61,891 bases of DNA, from IMG/VR virus record IMGVR_UViG_3300049893_001270, positions 1 to 61,891 of that record. The stretch is one strand, 5' to 3'. This stretch comes from a virus. Below the pieces are notes generated by a model. That model was given only the letters and a program-made list of their open reading frames with translations, did not search any database and was not told where the DNA came from. Position 1 is the stretch's first letter, and each line of letters starts with the position of its first letter. The position numbers and the translations under genes are program-made. This document shows positions 2,978-29,250 of the stretch, piece by piece.

Positions 2978-3298
2978 ATGGACAATCAAGCTCTTGTAGA
3001 GTTGCTCATCGAGCTTGTTCTGACCGGGCAAGCCTATGTGGCGGACGTTGTCAGGATCACAGGCATCGAACCACAAACGGTGGCAGCTCACATACGCGGT
3101 AGTGAGTTCATCAAGCTCGTACGCGGGGGCACGTCGCCCAGCTATGGCTACCTCACGATGCGCAACCGTGACGAAGCGTACGCTTTTCCAATCAGGTCCA
3201 TCGTCTACGACTTTTACTTTACGCTTAAACTATCACCGCCTACACCAGACTTCATCGATCTGGTCGTCGAGCACTACCGGATCAGAAAGACGTTCTAA
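2978..3298 (+). CDS. Hypothetical protein with possible helix-turn-helix, 106 aa
   Basis: No known family recognised. Residues about 20-40 (YVADVVRITGIEPQTVAAHI) have the spacing of a helix-turn-helix, so DNA binding is possible. The stop TAA shares its last base with the ATG of the metallopeptidase/VWA gene (TAATG). That places it inside the MoxR-VWA operon and suggests a role with that pair. Confidence 0.75.
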   Translation: MDNQALVELLIELVLTGQAYVADVVRITGIEPQTVAAHIRGSEFIKLVRGGTSPSYGYLTMRNRDEAYAFPIRSIVYDFYFTLKLSPPTPDFIDLVVEHYRIRKTF

Positions 3299-4554
3299 TG
3301 CAATTGAGCCCTGAGAAAAAGCTGGCCGCCGCAAGGTGGCTCGCGCTGAAGAAGATGCCGTACTTCAGCAGCGTGCTTCTCGGCCTGCGCCCTGTGCGCA
3401 TCGAGAACATGAACCCGCCCACGATGGCTGTCACATCCGACGGTCGCTTGCTGTGGTGCGACGAGGATCTCAACAAGTTGAGCGTGGCCGAGGTCGCCGC
3501 CTCGCTTTTGCACGAAGTCGGGCATGTCATTCTGCGGCATCACGACCGCAGAGCAGCCTACGGGGCTGACCCGGCGACGTTCAACATCGCTGGGGACATG
3601 GAGTGGAACGATGATCTGCGCGAAGCAGGTCTGAAAATGTTCACGATGGTGCTCCCCGAGCACGCTGGGTTCCCCGCGGGTAAGACCGCTGAGTGGTACT
3701 ACAACGAGCTCGTGAAGAAAGAGTCGCACGGGGTGCGTCAACCTCACTGCGGCTCTTGCTCTGGGCACAAGCACCCGCAAGAGCCCAACGACGGCGACGG
3801 TGGCGGGCAACCCAACGCGCAGAATCAAGGCGGCAATCAGCCGGACGCCAACGGTCAGAGCAACGCTCCCGCTCCTGGCATGACCAAGAGCGAAATGGAG
3901 TCGATGCTGGCCCAAGCTGCGCGCGACATCAAGGACGCGGCCGAGAAGCGTATCGGGAATGTCCCTGGTGGGCTGGTTCGCTGGGCCGACGCCCAGCTTG
4001 CCCCGCCTGTGGTGGATTGGCGTCGGCAGCTCGCGCAGCACGTCAGGTTCAACCTGCAACGTGCCGAGGGTGAGCACGACCGCACATACGCGAAGCCGCA
4101 CCGACTGCAACCTGCGCTGGGGTACGGCCCCGGTCGCCCGCTGCTCGCTCGTAGCGTTGGGTACAAGCAGCGCATCCTCGTGGCGGTGGATACATCGGGC
4201 TCCATTGGCACCGAGGAGCTCAACCTGTTCATGCCAGAGATCGACGCCGTGCTCCGCGCAGTTAACAGCGAAGTACACTTCGTTTCGTGCGACGCGCGGA
4301 TCAACGACGCGGGTAAGATCAACCACTGGCGCGACGCACTCAAGTTGCTCAAGGGCGGTGGCGGAACGGACTTCAATCCCGTGTTCGAGTACGCGAAGAA
4401 CATGCCCGAGCGACCGACGCTGGTCATCTTCTTCACGGACGGCTATGGCCCTGCGCCGCTCGTCGAGCCGCATGATATGGCGACGATCTGGCTGCTGACC
4501 CCATCGTCCATGCGCCCAGCGAAGTGGGGCACATACATCGACCTCAAGAAGTAG
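3298..4554 (+). CDS. HExxH metallopeptidase-like protein with C-terminal VWA domain
   Basis: Resembles the putative metallopeptidase/VWA-like family (DUF2201 type). A zinc-binding HEVGH (His72-Glu73, His76) lies in the N-terminal part. Residues about 155-200 are a Gln/Asn/Gly/Pro-rich linker. The C-terminal VWA-like fold carries the metal-ion-dependent adhesion motif DTSGS (Asp298-Ser302), a later GGGGTDF and IFFTDGYG. Such proteins are commonly encoded beside MoxR ATPases, as here, suggesting an ATPase-driven complex acting on metal or protein partners. Proteolysis is untested; some family members may have lost activity. Start ATG overlaps the previous stop. Confidence 0.85.
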   Translation: MQLSPEKKLAAARWLALKKMPYFSSVLLGLRPVRIENMNPPTMAVTSDGRLLWCDEDLNKLSVAEVAASLLHEVGHVILRHHDRRAAYGADPATFNIAGDMEWNDDLREAGLKMFTMVLPEHAGFPAGKTAEWYYNELVKKESHGVRQPHCGSCSGHKHPQEPNDGDGGGQPNAQNQGGNQPDANGQSNAPAPGMTKSEMESMLAQAARDIKDAAEKRIGNVPGGLVRWADAQLAPPVVDWRRQLAQHVRFNLQRAEGEHDRTYAKPHRLQPALGYGPGRPLLARSVGYKQRILVAVDTSGSIGTEELNLFMPEIDAVLRAVNSEVHFVSCDARINDAGKINHWRDALKLLKGGGGTDFNPVFEYAKNMPERPTLVIFFTDGYGPAPLVEPHDMATIWLLTPSSMRPAKWGTYIDLKK

Positions 4555-6542: not shown

Positions 6543-7082
6543 ATGGATGAGGAGCAGTTCATCGACAGCGCGGTATCGCGCGCCATCAGGCGGTACAAGA
6601 ACACGGCGTGGTGGTCCGAGCGGGAGGAACTCGGGCAGCAGCTTCGCGTCGAGTTGTTGGCGTCCATCCGTGCGGTTGGCTTGCCACGCACAAAAGAGCT
6701 GGCCTCGGTGATCGCGCACCGATCGTTGGCGCGGCACATTCGCAAGTTTCGGCTGCCAGTGAGCGGCGATGTCTGGCGTGAACAGCGCACAGCGCACATA
6801 TCCCGAGCGGGAGACGAGGTGCTCGATACCACCGTCTCTCACTTCGAGAACCCAGAGGCTCACGCGATCTCGTCCGAGCGGACGCGCATTGTCCGCGCGT
6901 ACGTTGGTCTGGTGTACACGGACAGCAAGGACATCGACATCTGCCTCATGTGGGCAGATGATGTGCCCCTGTTCGAGATCGCTCGTAGAATGGGGTGCAG
7001 CATCGGCACCGTGGGCAACCGCATTCGTCGCCTACGACAAGTGCTGGTGCGGTCCCGGCTGCGGGAGCTTTGGTTGGACTAA
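6543..7082 (+). CDS. Sigma-70-like (ECF-type) transcription factor
   Basis: Candidate phage sigma factor that could redirect host RNA polymerase. Residues about 125-175 form a region-4-like helix-turn-helix (FEIARRMGCSIGTVGNRIRR), the -35-recognition module. The N-terminal half is helical with basic patches, as in region 2, but poorly conserved, so the protein could instead be an anti- or co-regulator. The ATG at 6543 has a GGTGAAG just upstream; a GTG at 6525 overlapping the previous stop is the alternative start. It lies upstream of the ParB/OB-fold/helicase genes. Confidence 0.7.
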   Translation: MDEEQFIDSAVSRAIRRYKNTAWWSEREELGQQLRVELLASIRAVGLPRTKELASVIAHRSLARHIRKFRLPVSGDVWREQRTAHISRAGDEVLDTTVSHFENPEAHAISSERTRIVRAYVGLVYTDSKDIDICLMWADDVPLFEIARRMGCSIGTVGNRIRRLRQVLVRSRLRELWLD

Positions 7083-7141
7083 TGCGGTGGTAGCGGGACT
7101 GCACATCCCGCACGCCGCTAACAAAAAAAACAGGAGTGCCT

Positions 7142-7750
7142 ATGATCAAAGTCGAATCTGTGGAGATCAACAAGCTCCACAAGCAAAGCCGAAATCCCAA
7201 TTCGATGGGTGAGGCAGAGATGGCTGCGCTCCGCGCTTCGATCGAAGAGTACGGATTTCTTCAGCCAATCCTCGTACGCAGCCGAGAGGATGGCTTCGAG
7301 ATCGTCGATGGACACCATCGACGCGACGTGATGGCGAGCATGGGAGCTACGACGATCCCAGCGGTTGTCGTGGACAACCTGTCGCGTCGGCAGATCGACA
7401 TGCTCCAGCTCGCCATGAACAAGAATCGAGGATCGCTCCAGCTCGACGTGGTCGAGGCGATCTTTCGTGATCTGATGGAAGACGGACTCTCCGATCGAGA
7501 GTTGCTCGCCACGGGGTACTCTGACGAGGACGTGAACCGGCTACTGAAGCTGTCGGCGGCTGACACCGCCCCTGTGAAGGCTGGCGGCGCGTCGAGCGAC
7601 ATGGAGTTGCCGAGCAGGCCCGTGTCGTTGGAGATCCCGATGGAGAGCGCAGAGCAGCTCCGCATCGTCAAGGACAAGCTGAAGAAGGCCAGCGGCAAGG
7701 CCAGCGACGTGACAGTGGGGCTGCTCAACCTGTTGGGGATGATCGAATGA
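7142..7750 (+). CDS. ParB-like nuclease-domain protein 1
   Basis: The N-terminal about 110 residues match the ParB/Sulfiredoxin nuclease-like domain. An LRASIEEYGFLQPILV helix is followed by DGFEIVDGHHRRDV, where Asp56-His58-His59-Arg60 stand in place of the GERR box. A helical tail with DRELLATGYSDEDVNRLL follows. Phage ParB-like proteins serve as DNA nucleases, CTP-dependent switches or transcription regulators; which applies cannot be told. ATG 7142 follows AGGAG at 7131. A second, diverged copy lies at 28597-29250. Confidence 0.85.
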   Translation: MIKVESVEINKLHKQSRNPNSMGEAEMAALRASIEEYGFLQPILVRSREDGFEIVDGHHRRDVMASMGATTIPAVVVDNLSRRQIDMLQLAMNKNRGSLQLDVVEAIFRDLMEDGLSDRELLATGYSDEDVNRLLKLSAADTAPVKAGGASSDMELPSRPVSLEIPMESAEQLRIVKDKLKKASGKASDVTVGLLNLLGMIE

Positions 7751-8348: not shown

Positions 8349-8355
8349 GCGTCGA

Positions 8356-9795
8356 GTGGAAATCGAGCTGACGAACACAGTCGCGCGCGTGGTGAAAAAA
8401 ACAGCGCACGAAGCATCCTGGCTCCACAACTTCCTGACCTACAACGAAAAGAAGAGAACGCAGTTCGGCTTTTCGAGTCAGGCAGTCAGCCTGATGCACA
8501 TGGTAGATCAGACCTTCCCCGCTGGCCTCGTTACGCTGGTGAAGCGCGTAGCCAAGCGGGAGGGGTTCTCGATCGACGTATACGATCACCGAAAGTTCGA
8601 CGTACCGATCAACACGTCGGCCGATCTAGATTGGCTGCGTGACTACCAGATGGAAGCGTTAGAGTGGTGCGTACACGCGAAGCGAGGCATCATTCACGCC
8701 GCCACGGGCAGCGGTAAGACGGAAGTAATCATCGCAGCCACGATGGTGCTGCCGTGTAAATGGCTGGTGCTGGTTCACCGAAAAGAACTGCTGCACCAGT
8801 TCGCTGGCCGCTACAAGACTCGCACGGGGGAGGATTGCGGTGTTTGGGGTGACGGGCAATTCAAGGACGGCAGGGTGATTGTTGCCAGCGTGCAGACGGT
8901 TGCACGCGCGCTCGCCAAACGCGACCCACGCGCAGTCAAGCGTCTCGCGGGCATGAAGGGGCTGATCATCGACGAGTGCCACATCTCGGGCGCTCAGTCT
9001 GTCGTGACGATTGCAAACAACATGCATCAAGCGTCGTACAGGCTTGGGTTCAGCGCGACGCCTCTGGATCGTTCGGATGAAAAGAACCTTCTGGTGATCG
9101 GCGTGATTGGCGAGGTGATTTTTTCGATCAACGCCAAGAAGCTGATCGAGATGGAGGCTATCGCCAAACCGAAGATCCGGCTTGTACGGGCACCGATGTC
9201 TCCCGGCGTGGCAGAGAAGCTGACTGGGTATGGTGACTACGCTGCGACCTACAGACGGCTGATCTCGGGCGGTAAGTACAGGATCGTGACCACGGTTGAG
9301 ACGGTGATGAAAGCCGTGAAGCCGTGCATGGTGTTCGTGAAACTTATCGACCACGGCAAGGCGCTCGCCAAGGCGTTGTGTGAGTCTGGCGCTCGGGCTG
9401 AGTTTGTGTGGGGCGGCAAGAACAGCTACGCGCGCAAAATGGCGATCAAGCGTTTGCGGGACGGCGACATCGACGTGCTGGTCGCGAACGTGATCATGCA
9501 AGAGGGCGTGGACATCCCAGAGCTGATGTCCGTGGTGCTGGCCGACGGCGGCAAGTCTGTGATCGCTTCTGTGCAGTCCACAGGGCGTGGGTCACGCACA
9601 AAGGATCAGCACGGCAATACAATCAAGACCGAGTTCGACGTGTACGACATCGCGGATCGTGACTGCGGATGCCGCTACAAAGATCCATACGGCGGTTGGT
9701 CTTACGCGCACCCGCCGTGCAAGTGGCTCGACAGCCACACACGCAAGCGTATCCAGACCTACAAGCGCGAAGGGTACGAGATCATTGAAGAGTGA
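8356..9795 (+). CDS. SF2 DNA helicase (UvsW/DEAD-DECH type)
   Basis: ATP-dependent helicase of superfamily 2. An about 90-residue N-terminal domain resembles UvsW-type accessory domains. The Q-like LRDYQ precedes motif I AATGSGKT (residues 115-122), then motif II DECH (206-209) and motif III SATP (233-236). The second RecA-like lobe contains VLVANVIMQEGVDIPEL and ends with a motif VI-like QSTGRGSR. A Cys-rich insert CGCRYKDPYGG..PPC near the C-terminus may bind metal. Likely roles are branch migration or replication restart, as for T4 UvsW. Start is uncertain: GTG 8356 is the first codon after the upstream stop. Confidence 0.88.
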   Translation: MEIELTNTVARVVKKTAHEASWLHNFLTYNEKKRTQFGFSSQAVSLMHMVDQTFPAGLVTLVKRVAKREGFSIDVYDHRKFDVPINTSADLDWLRDYQMEALEWCVHAKRGIIHAATGSGKTEVIIAATMVLPCKWLVLVHRKELLHQFAGRYKTRTGEDCGVWGDGQFKDGRVIVASVQTVARALAKRDPRAVKRLAGMKGLIIDECHISGAQSVVTIANNMHQASYRLGFSATPLDRSDEKNLLVIGVIGEVIFSINAKKLIEMEAIAKPKIRLVRAPMSPGVAEKLTGYGDYAATYRRLISGGKYRIVTTVETVMKAVKPCMVFVKLIDHGKALAKALCESGARAEFVWGGKNSYARKMAIKRLRDGDIDVLVANVIMQEGVDIPELMSVVLADGGKSVIASVQSTGRGSRTKDQHGNTIKTEFDVYDIADRDCGCRYKDPYGGWSYAHPPCKWLDSHTRKRIQTYKREGYEIIEE

Positions 9796-10268
9796 TGTTG
9801 AGAAGCTACGTTGAAACACGCTCGCAGATTCTAACAATGCTGGCAGAGCTGACCCGCAGGTTTCAAGAAGAGTACCCCAACGACAACGTCAAGAGCTTCA
9901 TCGTTGGCGGCAACGAACGCTTGGTCATCAGAGGCGCGGCCATCCCGCATACTCGCTACGTTACGTCGGACTTCATTTTCAGCACGCCGTTCGGGATGCT
10001 CAAAGCTGAGTCCCCAAGAAGTGTGTGGGGCGGTACAACGATCGCTGTGGCTGGCCTAGCGAACACAGGCCACCGTAAGCGCCGAGCATTCATGGTCGGG
10101 CTGCCGTACATTCGCGAAGAAGAGCGGGCGATGTTGTACCGTATGCACATCGGGCAAGTAGTACAGACGGAAAACCCCAGCGCAGCGTTTCAAATGGTGC
10201 GCATGGCACGGCAGCTCGGAGAGCACGGCAGTACGCTGTTCACGCTGGAGCGCGCCTTTGCAGAATAA
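9795..10268 (+). CDS. Hypothetical protein, 157 aa
   Basis: ATG at 9795 overlaps the helicase stop by one base. The protein is basic with a helical N-terminus and a middle rich in beta-branched residues. I recognise no family. Position suggests it belongs to the helicase operon. Confidence 0.72.
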   Translation: MLRSYVETRSQILTMLAELTRRFQEEYPNDNVKSFIVGGNERLVIRGAAIPHTRYVTSDFIFSTPFGMLKAESPRSVWGGTTIAVAGLANTGHRKRRAFMVGLPYIREEERAMLYRMHIGQVVQTENPSAAFQMVRMARQLGEHGSTLFTLERAFAE

Positions 10269-10524
10269 CAGCTTGTTGCAGCAAGTCGCAAAAGCCTTGG
10301 CGGCTACCACCCCGCCACACCCCGATATGTTCTATGCGGGTGACACGCTGGTGCACCTGCTGACCAGCCCGATATCGTCGGTTCAGCAGACGCACGACGA
10401 TCTGCTTCGAGTGCGTGCATTCGACGAACTGAAAGATCGAATTCGCGTTGCCGAGTGGCTGGTAGCAGCCGAGCAGGTAGATCGCCGCATCCTGCGCTGG
10501 CTTTACCGAGGGGACTGGTACTGA
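10258..10524 (+). CDS. Small hypothetical protein, 88 aa (first of the small-gene array)
   Basis: Reading starts at TTG 10258, overlapping the previous gene by 11 nt; an internal ATG at 10327 is an alternative. It carries the FYAGDTLV segment that resembles the aromatic-x-x-[AS]-D-x-x-V motif recurring through the next 3 kb. Function unknown. Confidence 0.55.
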   Translation: MQNNSLLQQVAKALAATTPPHPDMFYAGDTLVHLLTSPISSVQQTHDDLLRVRAFDELKDRIRVAEWLVAAEQVDRRILRWLYRGDWY

Positions 10525-10547
10525 TAATCGACAAGCCGGTCAGCCTG

Positions 10548-10679
10548 TTGTTCGGCTGTGCAGACCGTATGATCTGGGACACCTTTAAAGAGGTGTCGCT
10601 CGGGCATCATGTCTTTCTGAACTACGCGCGCAGACGGCGCTTGTTGTTCGTCAGGCTGAACCATGACCCACCTCGATAA
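10548..10679 (+). CDS. Possible tiny ORF, 36-43 aa
   Basis: An open frame ending TAA 10677-10679 fills an otherwise empty gap. Starts are TTG 10548 or ATG 10569 (MIWDTFKEVSLGHHVFL). It overlaps the next ATG at 10663 as other genes here do. Coding status is uncertain. Confidence 0.3.
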   Translation: MFGCADRMIWDTFKEVSLGHHVFLNYARRRRLLFVRLNHDPPR

Positions 10680-10848
10680 AAAAGAAGCTGCGTCGCTGTT
10701 CGGGTACATCGACTCGCAAATTGAGTCAGCCATATGTACCCCGTTTCAACGATCATCCACGCGACGATCTAGGGTGATGCCCGAGATCATCAGCACGCTG
10801 GCGTCTGTGCGTGTGCTGCTTCTTTTAGGGTTGGTGTGGCGGCGATGA
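10663..10848 (+). CDS. Small array protein A, 61 aa
   Basis: Contains YIDSQIESAI and ends LLLLGLVWRR. The C-terminal LVWR also ends the next two proteins (10845-11015 and 11006-11221), so the three look like diverged tandem paralogues. Predicted mostly helical, soluble or peripheral. No known family. Confidence 0.6.
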   Translation: MTHLDKKEAASLFGYIDSQIESAICTPFQRSSTRRSRVMPEIISTLASVRVLLLLGLVWRR

Positions 10849-11015
10849 GCTCACACAACGATCGCCAATTGATCGACATGATCAAGTCCACACACGCAAG
10901 CATGTTCGAGTTTGCCGATAGCGCGGTCATGGTTGCGATGGATCGCGGCGTGCTGCCCACCGGCATGATGCGGCTACTGAGGCTGTGCGCAGCGGGGTCG
11001 TTGGTATGGCGCTAG
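10845..11015 (+). CDS. Small array protein B, 56 aa
   Basis: ATG 10845 overlaps the previous TGA. Core FEFADSAVMVAMDRG and C-terminus MMRLLRLCAAGSLVWR align with protein C (FADAAISAVMN, MRSLKSIACGLLVWR). The TAG stop lies inside a 14-nt sequence repeated at the next junction. Function unknown. Confidence 0.6.
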   Translation: MSSHNDRQLIDMIKSTHASMFEFADSAVMVAMDRGVLPTGMMRLLRLCAAGSLVWR

Positions 11016-11221
11016 CGAAAGGTAACGGTACGGTGAATCACACATATCCGACTACGCCGACCAAGTACGCCACGACCCGGCGCACGATCACTAACATGCG
11101 AGCGTTCGCTGACGCCGCTATCAGCGCCGTGATGAATGCCGTCAATGGCCGAAATGAGGTCGCTCCTGTGGCGATGCGATCCCTCAAGTCGATAGCCTGT
11201 GGGTTACTGGTATGGCGCTAG
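11006..11221 (+). CDS. Small array protein C, 71 aa
   Basis: ATG 11006 overlaps the stop of protein B by 10 nt. A polar N-terminus of about 30 residues precedes RAFADAAISAVMNAV and a C-terminal LLVWR, the same architecture as protein B. Its stop overlaps the next ATG in an identical 14-nt junction. Likely paralogue of A and B. Confidence 0.62.
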   Translation: MALAKGNGTVNHTYPTTPTKYATTRRTITNMRAFADAAISAVMNAVNGRNEVAPVAMRSLKSIACGLLVWR

Positions 11222-11409
11222 TATTCGTACCCATCAACGATTTGCACCGCCTTGCAGCGGACGGCATGTATCGTAGGGCTGACGAAACGATCCGCGCGCG
11301 GATTAACCGTGGCCGTCAGGTTTCCTGGCTGGCTCCGTGGGTTGTCATAGGTCGGGCAAGGATCGACGAGCTCATCTGGATGGTGGCGAGTGCGCGATCC
11401 CAACCATAA
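11212..11409 (+). CDS. Small array protein D, 65 aa
   Basis: ATG 11212 lies in the second copy of the junction repeat. It contains YRRADETIRARINRG, again the aromatic-x-x-A-D-x-x-I pattern, followed by a Trp-rich segment. Basic; function unknown. Confidence 0.6.
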   Translation: MALVFVPINDLHRLAADGMYRRADETIRARINRGRQVSWLAPWVVIGRARIDELIWMVASARSQP

Positions 11410-11578
11410 TCACGCGTGCGTGTTCGAATTAGCGGACATTGAAGTCTTCGATTTCAACAGCATGTACCGCCCGCCGATCTACTTCTACGCGCACTCTGGA
11501 TTCACTCAGCTTCGTTGGCGGCGGGCGCGTATGCGGGAGCTGCTGATAGCGTTCAACAAAGGCGGCGTGTATGCGTAA
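11390..11578 (+). CDS. Small array protein E, 62 aa
   Basis: GTG 11390 start overlaps protein D by 20 nt; GTG 11420 is an alternative. It contains VFELADIEVFDF and a basic LRWRRARMRELL C-terminal helix. Its pattern fits the array motif loosely. Function unknown. Confidence 0.5.
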   Translation: MRDPNHNHACVFELADIEVFDFNSMYRPPIYFYAHSGFTQLRWRRARMRELLIAFNKGGVYA

Positions 11579-11981
11579 CACCACAATGATGCGCGCGGCT
11601 GACGGGCTGACCGCAGAGGCGGTGTGTGAGCCGCAGCCGCACAGGCACACAACACCCAACCCACCAACGTCGCGGCACAGCAACCTCTCGCGCGGGCCGT
11701 TGATGCGCTCACTGGCAGCGTACAAGACCCTAACCGACCCATCGCGCCTGCCTGCCACAGACGATTGGGTTTATCGGGTGGGCAATTTCCCAGCATGGAA
11801 GCGAGACTTCTACACGCACCTCTGCGCCGTGGCAGCCAACTTCGTAGAGGAGATGCTTTTCACATACGACAGCGCGCGACTGCGGTATCTTCGCCAGCAC
11901 TACAGGATTTTTACGGTCAACAGATCGCGCGAGCTTGACATGGAGTGCAAGCGTCGAGAGGTGCGGTATGGGTACTGGTAA
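11571..11981 (+). CDS. Hypothetical protein F of the small-gene array, 136 aa
   Basis: ATG 11571 overlaps the previous stop by 8 nt. About 50 low-complexity N-terminal residues (Pro/Thr/His/Arg) precede a helical C-terminal half with CAVAANFVEEMLF and a basic RSRELDMECKRREVRYGYW tail. Only the C-terminal half resembles its neighbours, so the true start could be the internal ATG at 11703. Confidence 0.55.
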   Translation: MRNTTMMRAADGLTAEAVCEPQPHRHTTPNPPTSRHSNLSRGPLMRSLAAYKTLTDPSRLPATDDWVYRVGNFPAWKRDFYTHLCAVAANFVEEMLFTYDSARLRYLRQHYRIFTVNRSRELDMECKRREVRYGYW

Positions 11982-12186
11982 TCGCACGACGTATGTGACG
12001 CTGGACGGGCGCGAGCTTTCGACCCTGTACACGAAGAGCATCCACGAGCTCCTCGTATGTGCAGATGTCTGCGTACTGAGCGCAGCCCGCGGCAGCACGT
12101 ACTGGATGAGCGCCGAGAACAGCGCACGCCGCCAAGCTATCCTCGGGCTGCTGAAGAGGACGCGCGATGACGATTACGATTACTAG
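11968..12186 (+). CDS. Small array protein G, 72 aa
   Basis: ATG 11968 overlaps protein F by 14 nt. It contains LLVCADVCVLSAARGSTYW then ARRQAILGLLKR, matching the ADxxV helix, linker, basic helix layout. The tail is acidic (DDDYDY). Function unknown. Confidence 0.6.
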   Translation: MGTGNRTTYVTLDGRELSTLYTKSIHELLVCADVCVLSAARGSTYWMSAENSARRQAILGLLKRTRDDDYDY

Positions 12187-12376
12187 CCAGGACTATGCCC
12201 GCTTTGCGGGCAACATGTGGCGGTATGCGGACACAGTGGTGTTCAACGCTGCGGCGTCCGGCGTAAAAACACGCGCGTCCGTGTTCAACTACTTCGCCAA
12301 TGGGAAAGAGCTAATGGCTGTGCTGTCGGTTATTTTCGATCCTCGAAAAGACAGAGAAAGGGTGGTCGGGCTGTGA
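12167..12376 (+). CDS. Small array protein H, 69 aa
   Basis: ATG 12167 overlaps protein G by 20 nt. Core MWRYADTVVFNAAASGVK, then a second helix FNYFANGKELMAVLSVIF, is one of the clearest examples of the shared helical hairpin. Function unknown. Confidence 0.62.
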   Translation: MTITITSQDYARFAGNMWRYADTVVFNAAASGVKTRASVFNYFANGKELMAVLSVIFDPRKDRERVVGL

Positions 12377-12612
12377 AACCGTACAACTTGAACAAGTACA
12401 GCAGCGTTGGGTCGTACCCGTTGTTCATGGCACGGGGTGGCCGTGCCTACTGCATCGACTGCGCGAACGAGGAGCTACCGAGTCCGCACGACGTGATCGA
12501 CGCAAACTGGGAGAACCCAGAATTCTTCTGCGATCAGTGTGACGCCAGGATCGAGTCCGCGTACGCAGAGCACCTACGGGGGTATCATGGCGACCCGCCC
12601 ACCGACGGATAG
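12373..12612 (+). CDS. Small zinc-ribbon-like protein, 79 aa
   Basis: GTG 12373 overlaps the previous stop (GTGA). Two CxxC knuckles, CIDC and CDQC, about 30 residues apart and followed by HLRGYHGD, suggest a zinc ribbon for protein or nucleic-acid binding. It lacks the ADxxV motif of its neighbours, so it is a different family inside the array. Confidence 0.68.
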   Translation: MKPYNLNKYSSVGSYPLFMARGGRAYCIDCANEELPSPHDVIDANWENPEFFCDQCDARIESAYAEHLRGYHGDPPTDG

Positions 12613-12766
12613 CTCGTCGTACTACCTGCACCGCCTAGCAGACGCGATGGTGCGCGTAGTCCTTGTTGTACCGCCTCTCCTAGACGCACCTCGCCTACGC
12701 TCCAAGGATCGGGTTGTCACGTTCAACCGGCTGCTGGACATCTTCACCACGGGGCTAGACGACTGA
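12587..12766 (+). CDS. Small array protein J, 59 aa
   Basis: ATG 12587 overlaps the zinc-ribbon gene by 26 nt. Contains YYLHRLADAMVRVVLVV and then VTFNRLLDIF. Layout matches proteins H and N. Function unknown. Confidence 0.6.
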   Translation: MATRPPTDSSSYYLHRLADAMVRVVLVVPPLLDAPRLRSKDRVVTFNRLLDIFTTGLDD

Positions 12767-12769
12767 CCG

Positions 12770-12967
12770 ATGATTAGTTCCCTGACACCCACTGACGCAA
12801 TCGACTATGCGTACTTCTGTGCAGATCGATTGATTCCGATCGCCATAACGGAGGGCAGCGTGCGTCTGGCTCGGCATTTAGGTGTGCGGTCGGATTGGCG
12901 AACAGCCTGCTTTCAGACAGTGAGCACACCCGGATCGTACGTGCTCTACCGTTGGATAGACCCATGA
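12770..12967 (+). CDS. Small array protein K, 65 aa
   Basis: ATG 12770 is 3 nt after the previous stop. Contains YAYFCADRLIPIAITEG and a basic segment (RLARHLGVRSDWR). The stop overlaps the next ATG in ATGA. Function unknown. Confidence 0.6.
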   Translation: MISSLTPTDAIDYAYFCADRLIPIAITEGSVRLARHLGVRSDWRTACFQTVSTPGSYVLYRWIDP

Positions 12968-13218
12968 AAGCGCAAATCAAAGAAGTGTTCGCCTTCAGCG
13001 ACGAGCTGCTGTTCTTGTGTACGACTTATAGCGTGACTTGGCGTCGCGGTGTTCGCCCACTACTGATGAACAAACTACGAAAAAGGTTCACGGTCTGCGG
13101 CGTGTACGATTACGCTGACTGGGTCGTCGCAAACTTGCACTCACCCTCTTTCACGAATGGGCGTGATCGTAAATGGTTTACGCGCGTAATGATGCACAGT
13201 CCCTCGCTACACGGGTAG
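12964..13218 (+). CDS. Small array protein L, 84 aa
   Basis: ATG 12964. Contains VFAFSDELLFLCTTYSVTWR followed by a basic RPLLMNKLRKRF helix; a second YDYADWVVANL occurs at about residue 50. Thus the aromatic-x-[AS]-D-x-x-V element may be present twice. Function unknown. Confidence 0.6.
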   Translation: MKAQIKEVFAFSDELLFLCTTYSVTWRRGVRPLLMNKLRKRFTVCGVYDYADWVVANLHSPSFTNGRDRKWFTRVMMHSPSLHG

Positions 13219-13502
13219 CCCTAGACTACGGGTTGTATAACGACTCCATCGCGATGGTCGTCGCGCTGGGTTTGCGCGGGCGTATGCACCGCCGACATCT
13301 CACGCTCTTGACGCGCCCACCAATGCGCGGGCTGGCAGTGAAATTGCTCTTCTTACTGGCTGACAAATCGGTCAGAAACACGGTGCTGTTTGGCGATATC
13401 ACTACGCGCGCAGCATGGTACATGGCGAACATTTTCCCATCCAGCTACAGAATGGGCGTGCTCAATGAACTCGCTAACAGCGCAATTCAGCTCGACGAGT
13501 GA
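13173..13502 (+). CDS. Small array protein M, 109 aa (possible two-unit protein)
   Basis: From ATG 13173, overlapping the previous gene by 46 nt. It shows LYNDSIAMVVALGLRGRM and then LLADKSVRNTVLFGDI, giving two copies of the array motif about 50 residues apart. It could be a fusion of two units. A later ATG at 13254 is an alternative start. Function unknown. Confidence 0.58.
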   Translation: MVYARNDAQSLATRVALDYGLYNDSIAMVVALGLRGRMHRRHLTLLTRPPMRGLAVKLLFLLADKSVRNTVLFGDITTRAAWYMANIFPSSYRMGVLNELANSAIQLDE

Positions 13503-13650
13503 CTCGTCATACTTCGCGGTGTTCACGGGAGCAGACGCGATGGTGTACTTGGCGATGATGCACTTGACGAGGCTCTCGCAGAACGCGAGCGTACGACTGA
13601 CGCCCAGGCCCATACTCATGGAGCGGCTGAAACTTCGACTGGCCGCGTAG
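13465..13650 (+). CDS. Small array protein N, 61 aa
   Basis: ATG 13465 overlaps the previous gene by 38 nt. Contains FAVFTGADAMVYLAMMHLTR and ends in a basic helix (PILMERLKLRLAA). It is the last member of the array; a larger unrelated gene with a real ribosome site follows. Confidence 0.6.
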   Translation: MNSLTAQFSSTSDSSYFAVFTGADAMVYLAMMHLTRLSQNASVRLTPRPILMERLKLRLAA

Positions 13651-13668
13651 CCAACAGGAGTGATCGAC

Positions 13669-14370
13669 GTGTTTCGAGAGCTGCTGGAGTCCCCCGAGGA
13701 TTTCGACGGGGGTGGAGACTTCGTCTGCCCGCCCAACAACATGGCGTCAGTGCTTCGCGCGCTGAACACAGGAGAGTTTCCGCGTGACCCGGCTGACCTT
13801 GTTGTCAGCGTACCGGCTCCTCCGTTTCTGCACGAAGTCTCGCCGTTGTACGAGACGCAAGCGGTGTTTCTAGCGCAAGCGTACGAGCACTATTGCCGCC
13901 ACAAATACGGGCACGTTCCTGCGTGCAAGATCAAGCGTGCGGCGCGAAAGCCGATGCTGATGAGCGCCGCGGCCTTCTTCGTAGCGCACAAGCTCGCCCC
14001 GCATGAATGGTTCGTGTTCATGTCGTTTGTGTGGCACAGCTACATGGATCACCCGGCCAACGAGCCGCCACCGATGCGCATGGTGTTCGACCTCGAACGC
14101 ATCCGAAAGAACCGCGGCTGGTGTCGAAGTGAAACCCGCTTGTTCCCTCAACGGTTGTCGCTTGTCCCCACGGTGGCACATTACCTCGCGGGGTATCTCG
14201 CGTGTTACCGAGCCGCGGAGTCTGGGAGCGTCGCGCGCACACGGTATACGATCGGCCTGTTTTTTCCTAACGGCTGGCAGCGGGTGTATGACACAGCCCT
14301 AGCCGCCGCGACCAAACACAAAGACGAGCTGCTCGCCAAGCGAAACGCTGGTCTTTTTCTCTGGGAGTAA
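13669..14370 (+). CDS. Hypothetical protein, 233 aa
   Basis: GTG 13669 has AGGAG 8 nt upstream, which favours it over the in-frame GTG at 13660. The N-terminal 60 residues are acidic; the rest is helical with many Tyr, His and Trp. No family recognised. It lies directly upstream of the replicative helicase, so a loader or partner role is conceivable but unsupported. Confidence 0.72.
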   Translation: MFRELLESPEDFDGGGDFVCPPNNMASVLRALNTGEFPRDPADLVVSVPAPPFLHEVSPLYETQAVFLAQAYEHYCRHKYGHVPACKIKRAARKPMLMSAAAFFVAHKLAPHEWFVFMSFVWHSYMDHPANEPPPMRMVFDLERIRKNRGWCRSETRLFPQRLSLVPTVAHYLAGYLACYRAAESGSVARTRYTIGLFFPNGWQRVYDTALAAATKHKDELLAKRNAGLFLWE

Positions 14371-14381
14371 TGGAGCCGTAG

Positions 14382-15719
14382 ATGTCCAGTTACGGAATGG
14401 CGCTGGCGTTTGAGCAAACCGTTGCCTGCATGGCAGCGCAACGCCCAAAGTTCTTTTCAACCGTCGTCGAGTCGATCGACCCTGAGCTGTTCAGCGACAC
14501 GCACGCTCGAACGATCGTGACGGCGGCGCAGCTCATCTACCGCGAGACGGGCAACTGCCCGTCATCCCCCGTCGTGACTGCGCAGCGGCTCGCCCGTATG
14601 CATATCGACGGGAAGCTCACCGAGGCGGCGAAGGACGCCGCTATTGATCTTCTCATCGACTTGGACATCGGCAACATCAAGGACGAGGAGATCATCGATC
14701 AGCTTCGTCCTGTGATGCTGTCGTTCGTGAACAAATCGATTGCGCGTGCAGCCATCGACGCCGTTGGCTCGGGCAACTTCAAGCCGGTTCGCGACGCCAT
14801 CGACATGGCCGACAAGATCGGCCGCATGGACTCGGATCTCGGCGTGTCCGACGATATGGATGTCAACTCTTACATCCGATCGTGCGCTGTGCGCGACAAG
14901 CTGACGACCGGGATAATGGAGCTCGACATTCTCTGCGGTAACGGTGGTACGAACATCGGCACGCTAGAAACGATGGTCGCAAAGACATCGGGCGGAAAGT
15001 CGATGTGGCTCGTGCACCGTGCGAAGCACGCACTGCGTGCTGGTCGTTTCACCGGGATCGTCACGCTGGAGCTCAACCAGGCCAAGTGGCTCGCGCGTCT
15101 GTATGCCAGCTTCACGGGCATCCCGACCAACCTGATTCTGAACGAAACGATGCTGCGCGAGGCGTGCGGAATCATGGAGTCCATCAAGCCAAACATCGCA
15201 CCGTTCGTGTTGAAGTACATGAACCCGGTCAACACCAAGCTCTCTGACATCCAGCAGTGGGTCGAACAGATCGAGCAGCGCCGCGGGCGTAAGATGGACG
15301 TGTTGGTCGTGGACTACCTCGACAAGATCGTCACGGACAGCGACGCGACCGACTACAAAGCTCTCGGTCGCGTGTTCGAGGGTACGCGGGTGTGGATGGA
15401 GGACACGAACCGCTGGGGGATCACCGCGTCGCAGCCCAAGCGCCAGGATGGCAAAAACAGGCTCGCGGTTCTTACCACAGAGGATCTGTCCGACTCGCAG
15501 AACAAAGCCCGCATCGTGGACTACATCTTCACTGCGAACCGCAACGAAGAGAACCACGTCACAATCACCAAGCTGAAAGACCGCCACGACGGCAATGAGG
15601 GCAAGAGCGTCGGCCCGTACCCGTCGAACTTCGCGTGCGCCCAGATCGTGCCCGACAACGCAGCAGTGATGTCGATGGCCGACATGGTCGCCAGGGGCGA
15701 CAATGGGAAACTGGAATAA
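14382..15719 (+). CDS. DnaB-like replicative helicase
   Basis: Hexameric 5'-3' helicase of the DnaB/RecA-like family unwinding the phage fork. The N-terminal helical domain (about 1-150) is followed by the ATPase: Walker A AKTSGGKS (residues 200-207), a LELNQ segment with the catalytic Glu near 230, and Walker B VLVVDYLD (Asp311). ITASQPKR (about 347-354) holds the Gln of motif H4. KLKDRHDG near the C-terminus fits the arginine-finger region. The primase is a separate protein at 603-1442. ATG 14382 follows GGAG at 14371. Confidence 0.9.
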   Translation: MSSYGMALAFEQTVACMAAQRPKFFSTVVESIDPELFSDTHARTIVTAAQLIYRETGNCPSSPVVTAQRLARMHIDGKLTEAAKDAAIDLLIDLDIGNIKDEEIIDQLRPVMLSFVNKSIARAAIDAVGSGNFKPVRDAIDMADKIGRMDSDLGVSDDMDVNSYIRSCAVRDKLTTGIMELDILCGNGGTNIGTLETMVAKTSGGKSMWLVHRAKHALRAGRFTGIVTLELNQAKWLARLYASFTGIPTNLILNETMLREACGIMESIKPNIAPFVLKYMNPVNTKLSDIQQWVEQIEQRRGRKMDVLVVDYLDKIVTDSDATDYKALGRVFEGTRVWMEDTNRWGITASQPKRQDGKNRLAVLTTEDLSDSQNKARIVDYIFTANRNEENHVTITKLKDRHDGNEGKSVGPYPSNFACAQIVPDNAAVMSMADMVARGDNGKLE

Positions 15720-20033: not shown

Positions 20034-20106
20034 GAGACGCTAACTCAATTGGTAGAGTACCCGGCTTTTAACCGGAGTGTTCGGGGTTCGACCCCCCGGC
20101 GTCTCA
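20034..20106 (+). tRNA. tRNA-Lys (anticodon TTT)
   Basis: Full cloverleaf. Acceptor GAGACGC/GCGTCTC (20034-20040 with 20099-20105) with discriminator A20106; D arm ACTC/GAGT. The anticodon loop CTTTTAA (20065-20071) gives UUU. T arm CGGGG-TTCGACC-CCCCG. CCA is not encoded. It lies immediately upstream of the polymerase start. It reads AAA/AAG codons and may offset codon bias between phage and host. Confidence 0.95.
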
Positions 20107-20121
20107 CTCCCTGGTGAATTC

Positions 20122-28596: not shown

Positions 28597-29250
28597 GTGC
28601 TCACAAACAAAACTGTCATCGGAGATGTCGTGGTTGGCACCGTCAACCCGGCAGAGCTTCTCAAACGCCGCCAGAACTTCCGCAGCATGACCCCCAAGGA
28701 GCGCAACGCACTACGCGCTTCGATCGTTAAGTACGGGTTCAAGTCATTCATCCTCGTGCGGGAGCGCGCCGACGGGTTCGAGATCATCGACGGCCACCAT
28801 CGCACTTCGATCGCGGGGGAGCTCGGCATCGCGCAGATCCCAGCGGTCGTGCTCGGTCCTGACCAAGACGCAGGCGCGGTGGATCTCGCCATGCTTTCGT
28901 TCAACGTGCACGCGCAGCCCGTCGCAGACCAGATGTTCGCCTTTCTCAAAGAGATCGCTGAGTCTGGCACGAGCTCGACAGAGATCGCTGCGCTGACGGG
29001 GATGGACGATACCTTCGTGACCGCGCTGCTGGACGCAGCCGTGGCGTCCCCGACGCCGATCGAAACGTCCCCTGACCCCGCGCCGCGTCCTGACCTGCCC
29101 GCTACCTCCGAGTCCAAGCCTGCGACTGCGCCGCAGGACAAGTCTACGTACTTGGAGTTTTTCAAGTCTCGATATGGCGTCACTTCGACGAGTGAAGCCA
29201 CGCAGCGCGCTATGGCAGAGCTGTACGAGATGCTCGTGCTGGGCGACTGA
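28597..29250 (+). CDS. ParB-like nuclease-domain protein 2
   Basis: GTG 28597, 2 nt after the previous stop. The ParB-like domain resembles that at 7142-7750: LRASIVKYGFKSFILV and DGFEIIDGHHRTSIAG align well with LRASIEEYGFLQPILV and DGFEIVDGHHRRDVMA. A Pro/Ala-rich linker (about 150-185) separates a C-terminal helical segment (YLEFFKSRYGV). The tails of the two paralogues differ, suggesting distinct partners or targets. Confidence 0.83.
   Translation: MLTNKTVIGDVVVGTVNPAELLKRRQNFRSMTPKERNALRASIVKYGFKSFILVRERADGFEIIDGHHRTSIAGELGIAQIPAVVLGPDQDAGAVDLAMLSFNVHAQPVADQMFAFLKEIAESGTSSTEIAALTGMDDTFVTALLDAAVASPTPIETSPDPAPRPDLPATSESKPATAPQDKSTYLEFFKSRYGVTSTSEATQRAMAELYEMLVLGD

Follow-up and report, generated by a model that had tools for sequence, protein, structure and literature searches.

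The array described here lies in a virus record from IMG/VR; the whole record, 61,891 bases long, is referred to below as the window. About 15-16 small plus-strand ORFs span positions 10258-13650 of the replication region, flanked on the left by an SF2 helicase and on the right by a DnaB-like helicase (Table 1). The preliminary description had placed small ORFs overlapping head to tail between these two helicases; the arrangement is present as described, and all ORFs and peptides that it quoted were located. Nearly all adjacent array ORFs overlap by 4 to 46 nt. At a typical boundary the start codon of the downstream gene immediately precedes the stop codon of the upstream gene, as in ATGA (o4/o5 and o14/o15), GTGA (o11/o12) and ATGGCGCTAG (o5/o6 and again o6/o7). 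The zinc-ribbon gene that had been noted inside the array is also real: the four cysteines of o12 form two CxxC pairs, and the PHROG matched by this ORF is annotated as DNA ligase.

Table 1. ORFs of the array and of its flanks (positions in the window)
ORF	Position	Strand	Motif	Remarks	Evidence
SF2 helicase	8353..9795	+		left flank; conserved in relatives	Pfam ResIII/DEAD/Helicase_C
o1	9792..10268	+		158 aa, between SF2 and array; non-member	0 Pfam/PHROG matches
o2	10258..10524	+	MFYAGDTLV	weak member	leave-one-out scores, jackknifed HMMs
o3	10455..10679	+	LFGCADRMI	true start uncertain	EM search, leave-one-out scores
o4	10663..10848	+	LFGYIDSQI	C-terminal LVWRR	EM search, leave-one-out scores
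o5	10845..11015	+	MFEFADSAV	closest to consensus; C-terminal LVWR; alternative start GTG 10836	
o6	11006..11221	+	MRAFADAAI	nearest paralogue o5; C-terminal LVWR	
o7	11212..11409	+	MYRRADETI		EM search, leave-one-out scores
o8	11390..11578	+	VFELADIEV		EM search, leave-one-out scores
o9	11571..11981	+		136 aa; membership unsupported, doubtful	motif-like FTYDSAR no better than 2% of random windows
o10	11968..12186	+	LLVCADVCV	weak member	good ribosome-binding site GAGAGGTG
o11	12167..12376	+	MWRYADTVV	structure modelled	EM search, jackknifed HMMs
o12	12373..12612	+		zinc-ribbon ORF inside array; non-member	PHROG 18452 E=1.4e-8; motif test negative
o13	12587..12766	+	LHRLADAMV	nearest o17	EM search, jackknifed HMMs
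o14	12770..12967	+	YFCADRLI		EM search, leave-one-out scores
o15	12964..13218	+	VFAFSDELL, VYDYADWVV	two motif copies; overlaps o14 as ATGA	
o16	13173..13502	+	LLFLLADKSV (Asp codon 13362)	LYNDSIAMV weak	
o17	13465..13650	+	VFTGADAMV	DNA in common with o13	
o18	13660..14370	+		homologous to C-terminal half of relatives' initiator-like protein	tblastn, alignment A5
DnaB-like helicase	14382..15719	+		right flank; same order in relatives	Pfam DnaB_C

No non-coding RNA in the array scored above the Rfam thresholds, and no enrichment of promoter-like sites was seen. Terminator-like sites numbered 20 between positions 7000 and 17000 against 8.3 expected from shuffles; they occur on both strands and are mostly intragenic. 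Elsewhere in the window there are two ParB_N-domain paralogues (7136-7750 and 28597-29250, 38% identical), one of them directly upstream of an OB-fold ORF and the SF2 helicase, and a DUF2201 protein (metallopeptidase plus VWA-like, 3298-4554) that is conserved across related phages. A tRNA-Lys gene (20034-20107) overlaps the start first proposed for the DNA polymerase ORF (20077), therefore the real start is probably later.

GC content was highest at the third codon position in all 17 ORFs from o1 to o17; this held for 28 of the 56 spurious ORFs located within known genes and for 5 of 16 antisense array ORFs. The Shine-Dalgarno match was 3.4 letters, as against 2.3 for random starts (p about 0.004, 0.4% of samples scoring as well; one start in 16 was placed 4 nt off). 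Codon scores favoured the annotated frame in most array ORFs, yet they were low beside those of the helicases, and for o3, o4, o14 and o17 they were no better than in non-coding frames. Because of the GC3 bias, the ribosome-binding-site matches and the codon scores, the array ORFs are likely to be translated as a set, the individual ORFs less certainly so.

An EM motif search without prior knowledge recovered in nearly all array ORFs the motif that had been noticed by eye as aromatic-x-x-[AS]-D-x-x-[VI]. Its fuller form is hydrophobic/aromatic-x-x-A-D-x-x-V/I-x-x-A with a near-invariant Asp. At width 14 the log-likelihood (LL) was 186, compared with 145.6 +/- 5.0 (maximum 157.8) for shuffled sequences. 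With trimmed starts it was 181.3 versus 141.4 +/- 4.6 (maximum 151.9) for fragments, none overlapping another, taken from the other proteins of the window, the motif strength being about 8.7 standard deviations over such fragment sets. Leave-one-out scoring of 14 anchored members, corrected for the number of windows per ORF, gave a Fisher p of about 6e-12, which is a guide figure since the members share ancestry and the motif positions were picked by eye. A profile built from the small ORFs, the check that had been proposed, also linked them: for 9 of the 14 ORFs the one left out, scored with the jackknifed HMM, ranked 1-4 against about 1,150 segments from outside the family. Two further motif copies lie outside the motif model, at Asp codons 13117 (the second copy of o15) and 13362 (o16). 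Only 19 and 8, respectively, of 82,187 six-frame windows score higher, so that both fall in the top 0.03%. The motif was found nowhere else in the window, where the next HMM match had E = 0.1.

The family thus defined comprises about 13 ORFs (o2-o8, o10, o11 and o13-o17), whose products are short and mostly basic; o2 and o10 are the weakest. Not every ORF counted at the outset is supported as a member: about 13 ORFs are supported, but the motif test failed for o9 and for the zinc-ribbon ORF o12. The peptide originally quoted for o16 is weak, and the better-supported motif of this ORF is its other copy. The information in the motif was 0.46/0.43/0.22 bits at the three codon positions, its alanine is encoded by all four codons, and the motifs occur in all three reading frames, indicating that conservation is at the protein level. 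A conserved DNA-level motif was ruled out by the codon-position test.

It could be argued that the ORFs are unrelated and that the motif is a chance impression, since it is short, pairwise BLAST among the members gave no significant match, and R and A are common in the proteome. For the group as a whole this was refuted by the EM, fragment-control, leave-one-out and jackknifed-HMM statistics, together with the tail-motif statistics and the DNA common to gene boundaries (see below), and we consider it scarcely credible; single weak members (o2, o10) may be chance matches.

A linker and a second helix had been proposed to follow the motif. A weaker motif does follow it, roughly hydrophobic-M-x-x-L-x-x-x-hydrophobic, and this tail motif exceeded 40 of 40 shuffles (103.7 vs 94.9 +/- 3.5 at W10, 144.8 vs 133.3 +/- 4.0 at W14). 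Hydrophobicity around the Asp showed a helical periodicity with a peak at 96-100 degrees (permutation p 0.04). AlphaFold2 models made with the paralogue alignment, both of low confidence, contained helices 2-36 and 42-58 in o5 (pLDDT 73.5, pTM 0.37) and helices 7-31, 46-56 and 59-67 in o11 (pLDDT 72.5, pTM 0.40). In both, at this low confidence, the motif sits in a long N-terminal helix that is followed by further helix, in agreement with the proposal; the second segments differ, being one helix in o5 and two in o11. Fold searches with the modelled members found no match. The heptad-like hydrophobic spacing around the Asp (-4, -1, +3, +6/7) would also suit a helix that self-associates, the products forming a mixed helical bundle or coat. 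Coupled, overlapping genes are appropriate for co-assembly, and o15 has two motif copies. We nevertheless regard such a heteromeric assembly as quite improbable, because divergence as extreme as that seen outside the core is unusual among subunits, and the array genes lie outside the structural module.

The boundaries of the array genes provide information on their origin. The products of o5 and o6 are 35% identical, and the two genes finish with an identical stretch, GGTATGGCGCTAG, in which the stop codon of one gene overlaps the start codon of the next. The genes o13 and o17 share the 16-mer AGCAGACGCGATGGTG and, at the stop codon of the gene before each, CTCGTCxTACT. Since these pairs share boundary DNA, whole gene units including the overlaps were copied, which shows that at least some of the array arose by duplication of whole genes. 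The motif statistics and the shared boundary DNA both bear out the earlier suggestion of diverged paralogues arising by tandem expansion, and the array looks like a lineage-specific tandem expansion, within the replication operon, of one ancestral gene for a small accessory protein. The copied start/stop overlaps argue against a long repeat protein, decayed or broken in assembly, that was split by frameshifts. The spacing of the motifs (mostly about 117-245 nt), the different frames of successive units and the poor codon scores of some ORFs would fit such an origin. However, the large neighbouring genes are intact, a start codon sits at the stop codon at nearly every boundary (ATGA, GTGA or ATGGCGCTAG), in some cases with a good ribosome-binding site, the same overlap was copied along with two units, and a zinc-ribbon gene of unrelated origin lies inside the array. 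We therefore hold a broken repeat protein to be very improbable.

The preliminary description had recognized no known family among the small ORFs, and this holds: the array members had no homologue in Pfam, PHROGs or PDB. The best profile scores (Pfam E 0.13, PHROG E 0.027) each concerned one member only, and the best PDB match (0.06), to a molecule named SAKe6AR, covered 16 positions only. Neighbours o1, o18 and o20-o22 likewise had no Pfam or PHROG match, and neither the members nor these neighbours yielded a homologue with an assigned function or an Aca-type HTH regulator in these searches. When o5 and o16 were compared with phage records by tblastn, nothing was found below E 1, and viral scans with o16 and with the o5/o6 pair gave no homologue. 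Related phages, in which the same array had been expected to be worth looking for, were gathered by SF2 (21 viral contigs, 32-42% identity), polymerase (33) and tail-sheath (15, up to 49%). A profile search of 39 related viral records detected no family member; these contigs are in many cases incomplete, and the searches may have missed close relatives of the window. One weak profile match (E 0.025, positions 28-48 within a 290-aa frame) was treated as chance. The one SF2 relative obtained in a genome scan was distant (26% identity, in a Propionibacterium MAG) and gave no usable clue to the host. Within narrow literature searches, no bacteriophage array of this kind was found described.

Many relatives, including the sheath relative L081, have the order ParB - SF2 - winged-helix initiator-like - DnaB - primase - polymerase, where "winged-helix" is a reading of the sequence pattern, Pfam having no match above cut-off. 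ORF o18 matched L008, L014 and L023 at the same genomic position (tblastn 2e-6, 7e-5 and 9e-5); it corresponds to the C-terminal half only of their initiator-like protein, and the winged-helix half is absent here. Around this site the SF2-to-polymerase cassette of L001-L024 and L081 has the same order as the window, with homologous o18 and DnaB, but it contains the winged-helix domain that the window lacks and no array was seen in it. It also differs in the primase: in these relatives the gene directly follows DnaB, whereas the window's Toprim primase homologue (603-1442) lies far upstream of SF2, so the replication cassette has been rearranged. The gap between SF2 and the initiator-like gene is variable. 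In L016 (6400-9977) and L021 (12250-17599) it holds a few different small ORFs, likewise lineage-specific and in part with CxxC pairs, and in other relatives none; the site therefore appears to accept new genes. Intein-like insertions, judged by eye, are present in the SF2 helicase of L021 (10004-13477) and L023 (8831-11605) and in the DnaB P-loop region of L010 (4711-7032).

The genomic site makes a role in the replisome the strongest rival to the interpretation that we favour (see below). The conserved helix would dock on a single protein of the phage, either the SF2 helicase, o18 or DnaB. The rest of each member, being variable, would tune or re-target this partner and so stand in, in part, for the winged-helix half that the initiator-like protein lacks here. 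The array fills precisely the interval from SF2 to o18/DnaB, where most relatives encode a protein with both the winged-helix and the C-terminal part and the window only the C-terminal half, and the single near-invariant Asp points to an interaction common to the members. However, the family alignment appeared unrelated to those of the N- or C-terminal part of the initiator-like protein (hhalign probability 0.1-0.2%). Loss of the winged helix does not require the array either, because in L010, L015 and L019 the interval encodes no more than a C-terminal-type protein, and the array is absent. In addition, thirteen copies are hard to explain by a single docking partner, and on balance we think replisome modulation unlikely.

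Small size, tandem copying, strong divergence outside a small core and absence from the relatives found lead us to favour, tentatively, a panel of small co-expressed binders that have diverged toward different host or defence proteins. The overlapping genes would couple translation, and all members would then be produced simultaneously at an early stage of infection; the conserved helix would pack on the second helix as a small hairpin scaffold, and the variable surfaces of the diverged copies would bind different host or defence proteins, acting as small binders or inhibitors. A host-inhibitor or anti-defence role is plausible from position, size and divergence. The near-invariant Asp and the conserved hydrophobic core could equally indicate one shared partner instead of many, and a location among replication genes suits a replication role no less than host takeover. 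It is possible, though more doubtful, that the array represents an expandable family of scaffolds not described before, one lineage keeping about 13 co-translated helical mini-proteins that share a core and would each use a different binding surface to neutralise a different host or defence protein.

Compact runs of tiny early genes, mostly without assigned function, are also found in the host-takeover modules of phages such as SPO1; the genes of those modules are mostly unrelated, whereas nearly all genes of the array belong to one family. Many small paralogous genes close together in one virus genome, as in the array, are found in the AcrID1 anti-CRISPR clusters of rudiviruses such as SIRV1-3, which have been read as duplication with functional diversification (PMC11065993). 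The parallel is one of pattern and not of family, because the AcrID1 clusters belong to archaeal viruses and to another protein family, with members known to be anti-CRISPRs. Most tiny phage genes, to our knowledge, resemble nothing known, and hence their origin is unclear. In the array, a single small gene has multiplied and diverged on the spot, to such an extent that its copies can no longer be connected by ordinary BLAST. Should these copies bind different targets, they would amount to a natural collection of small binders and to a compact test system for the host-takeover or counter-defence repertoires of phages.
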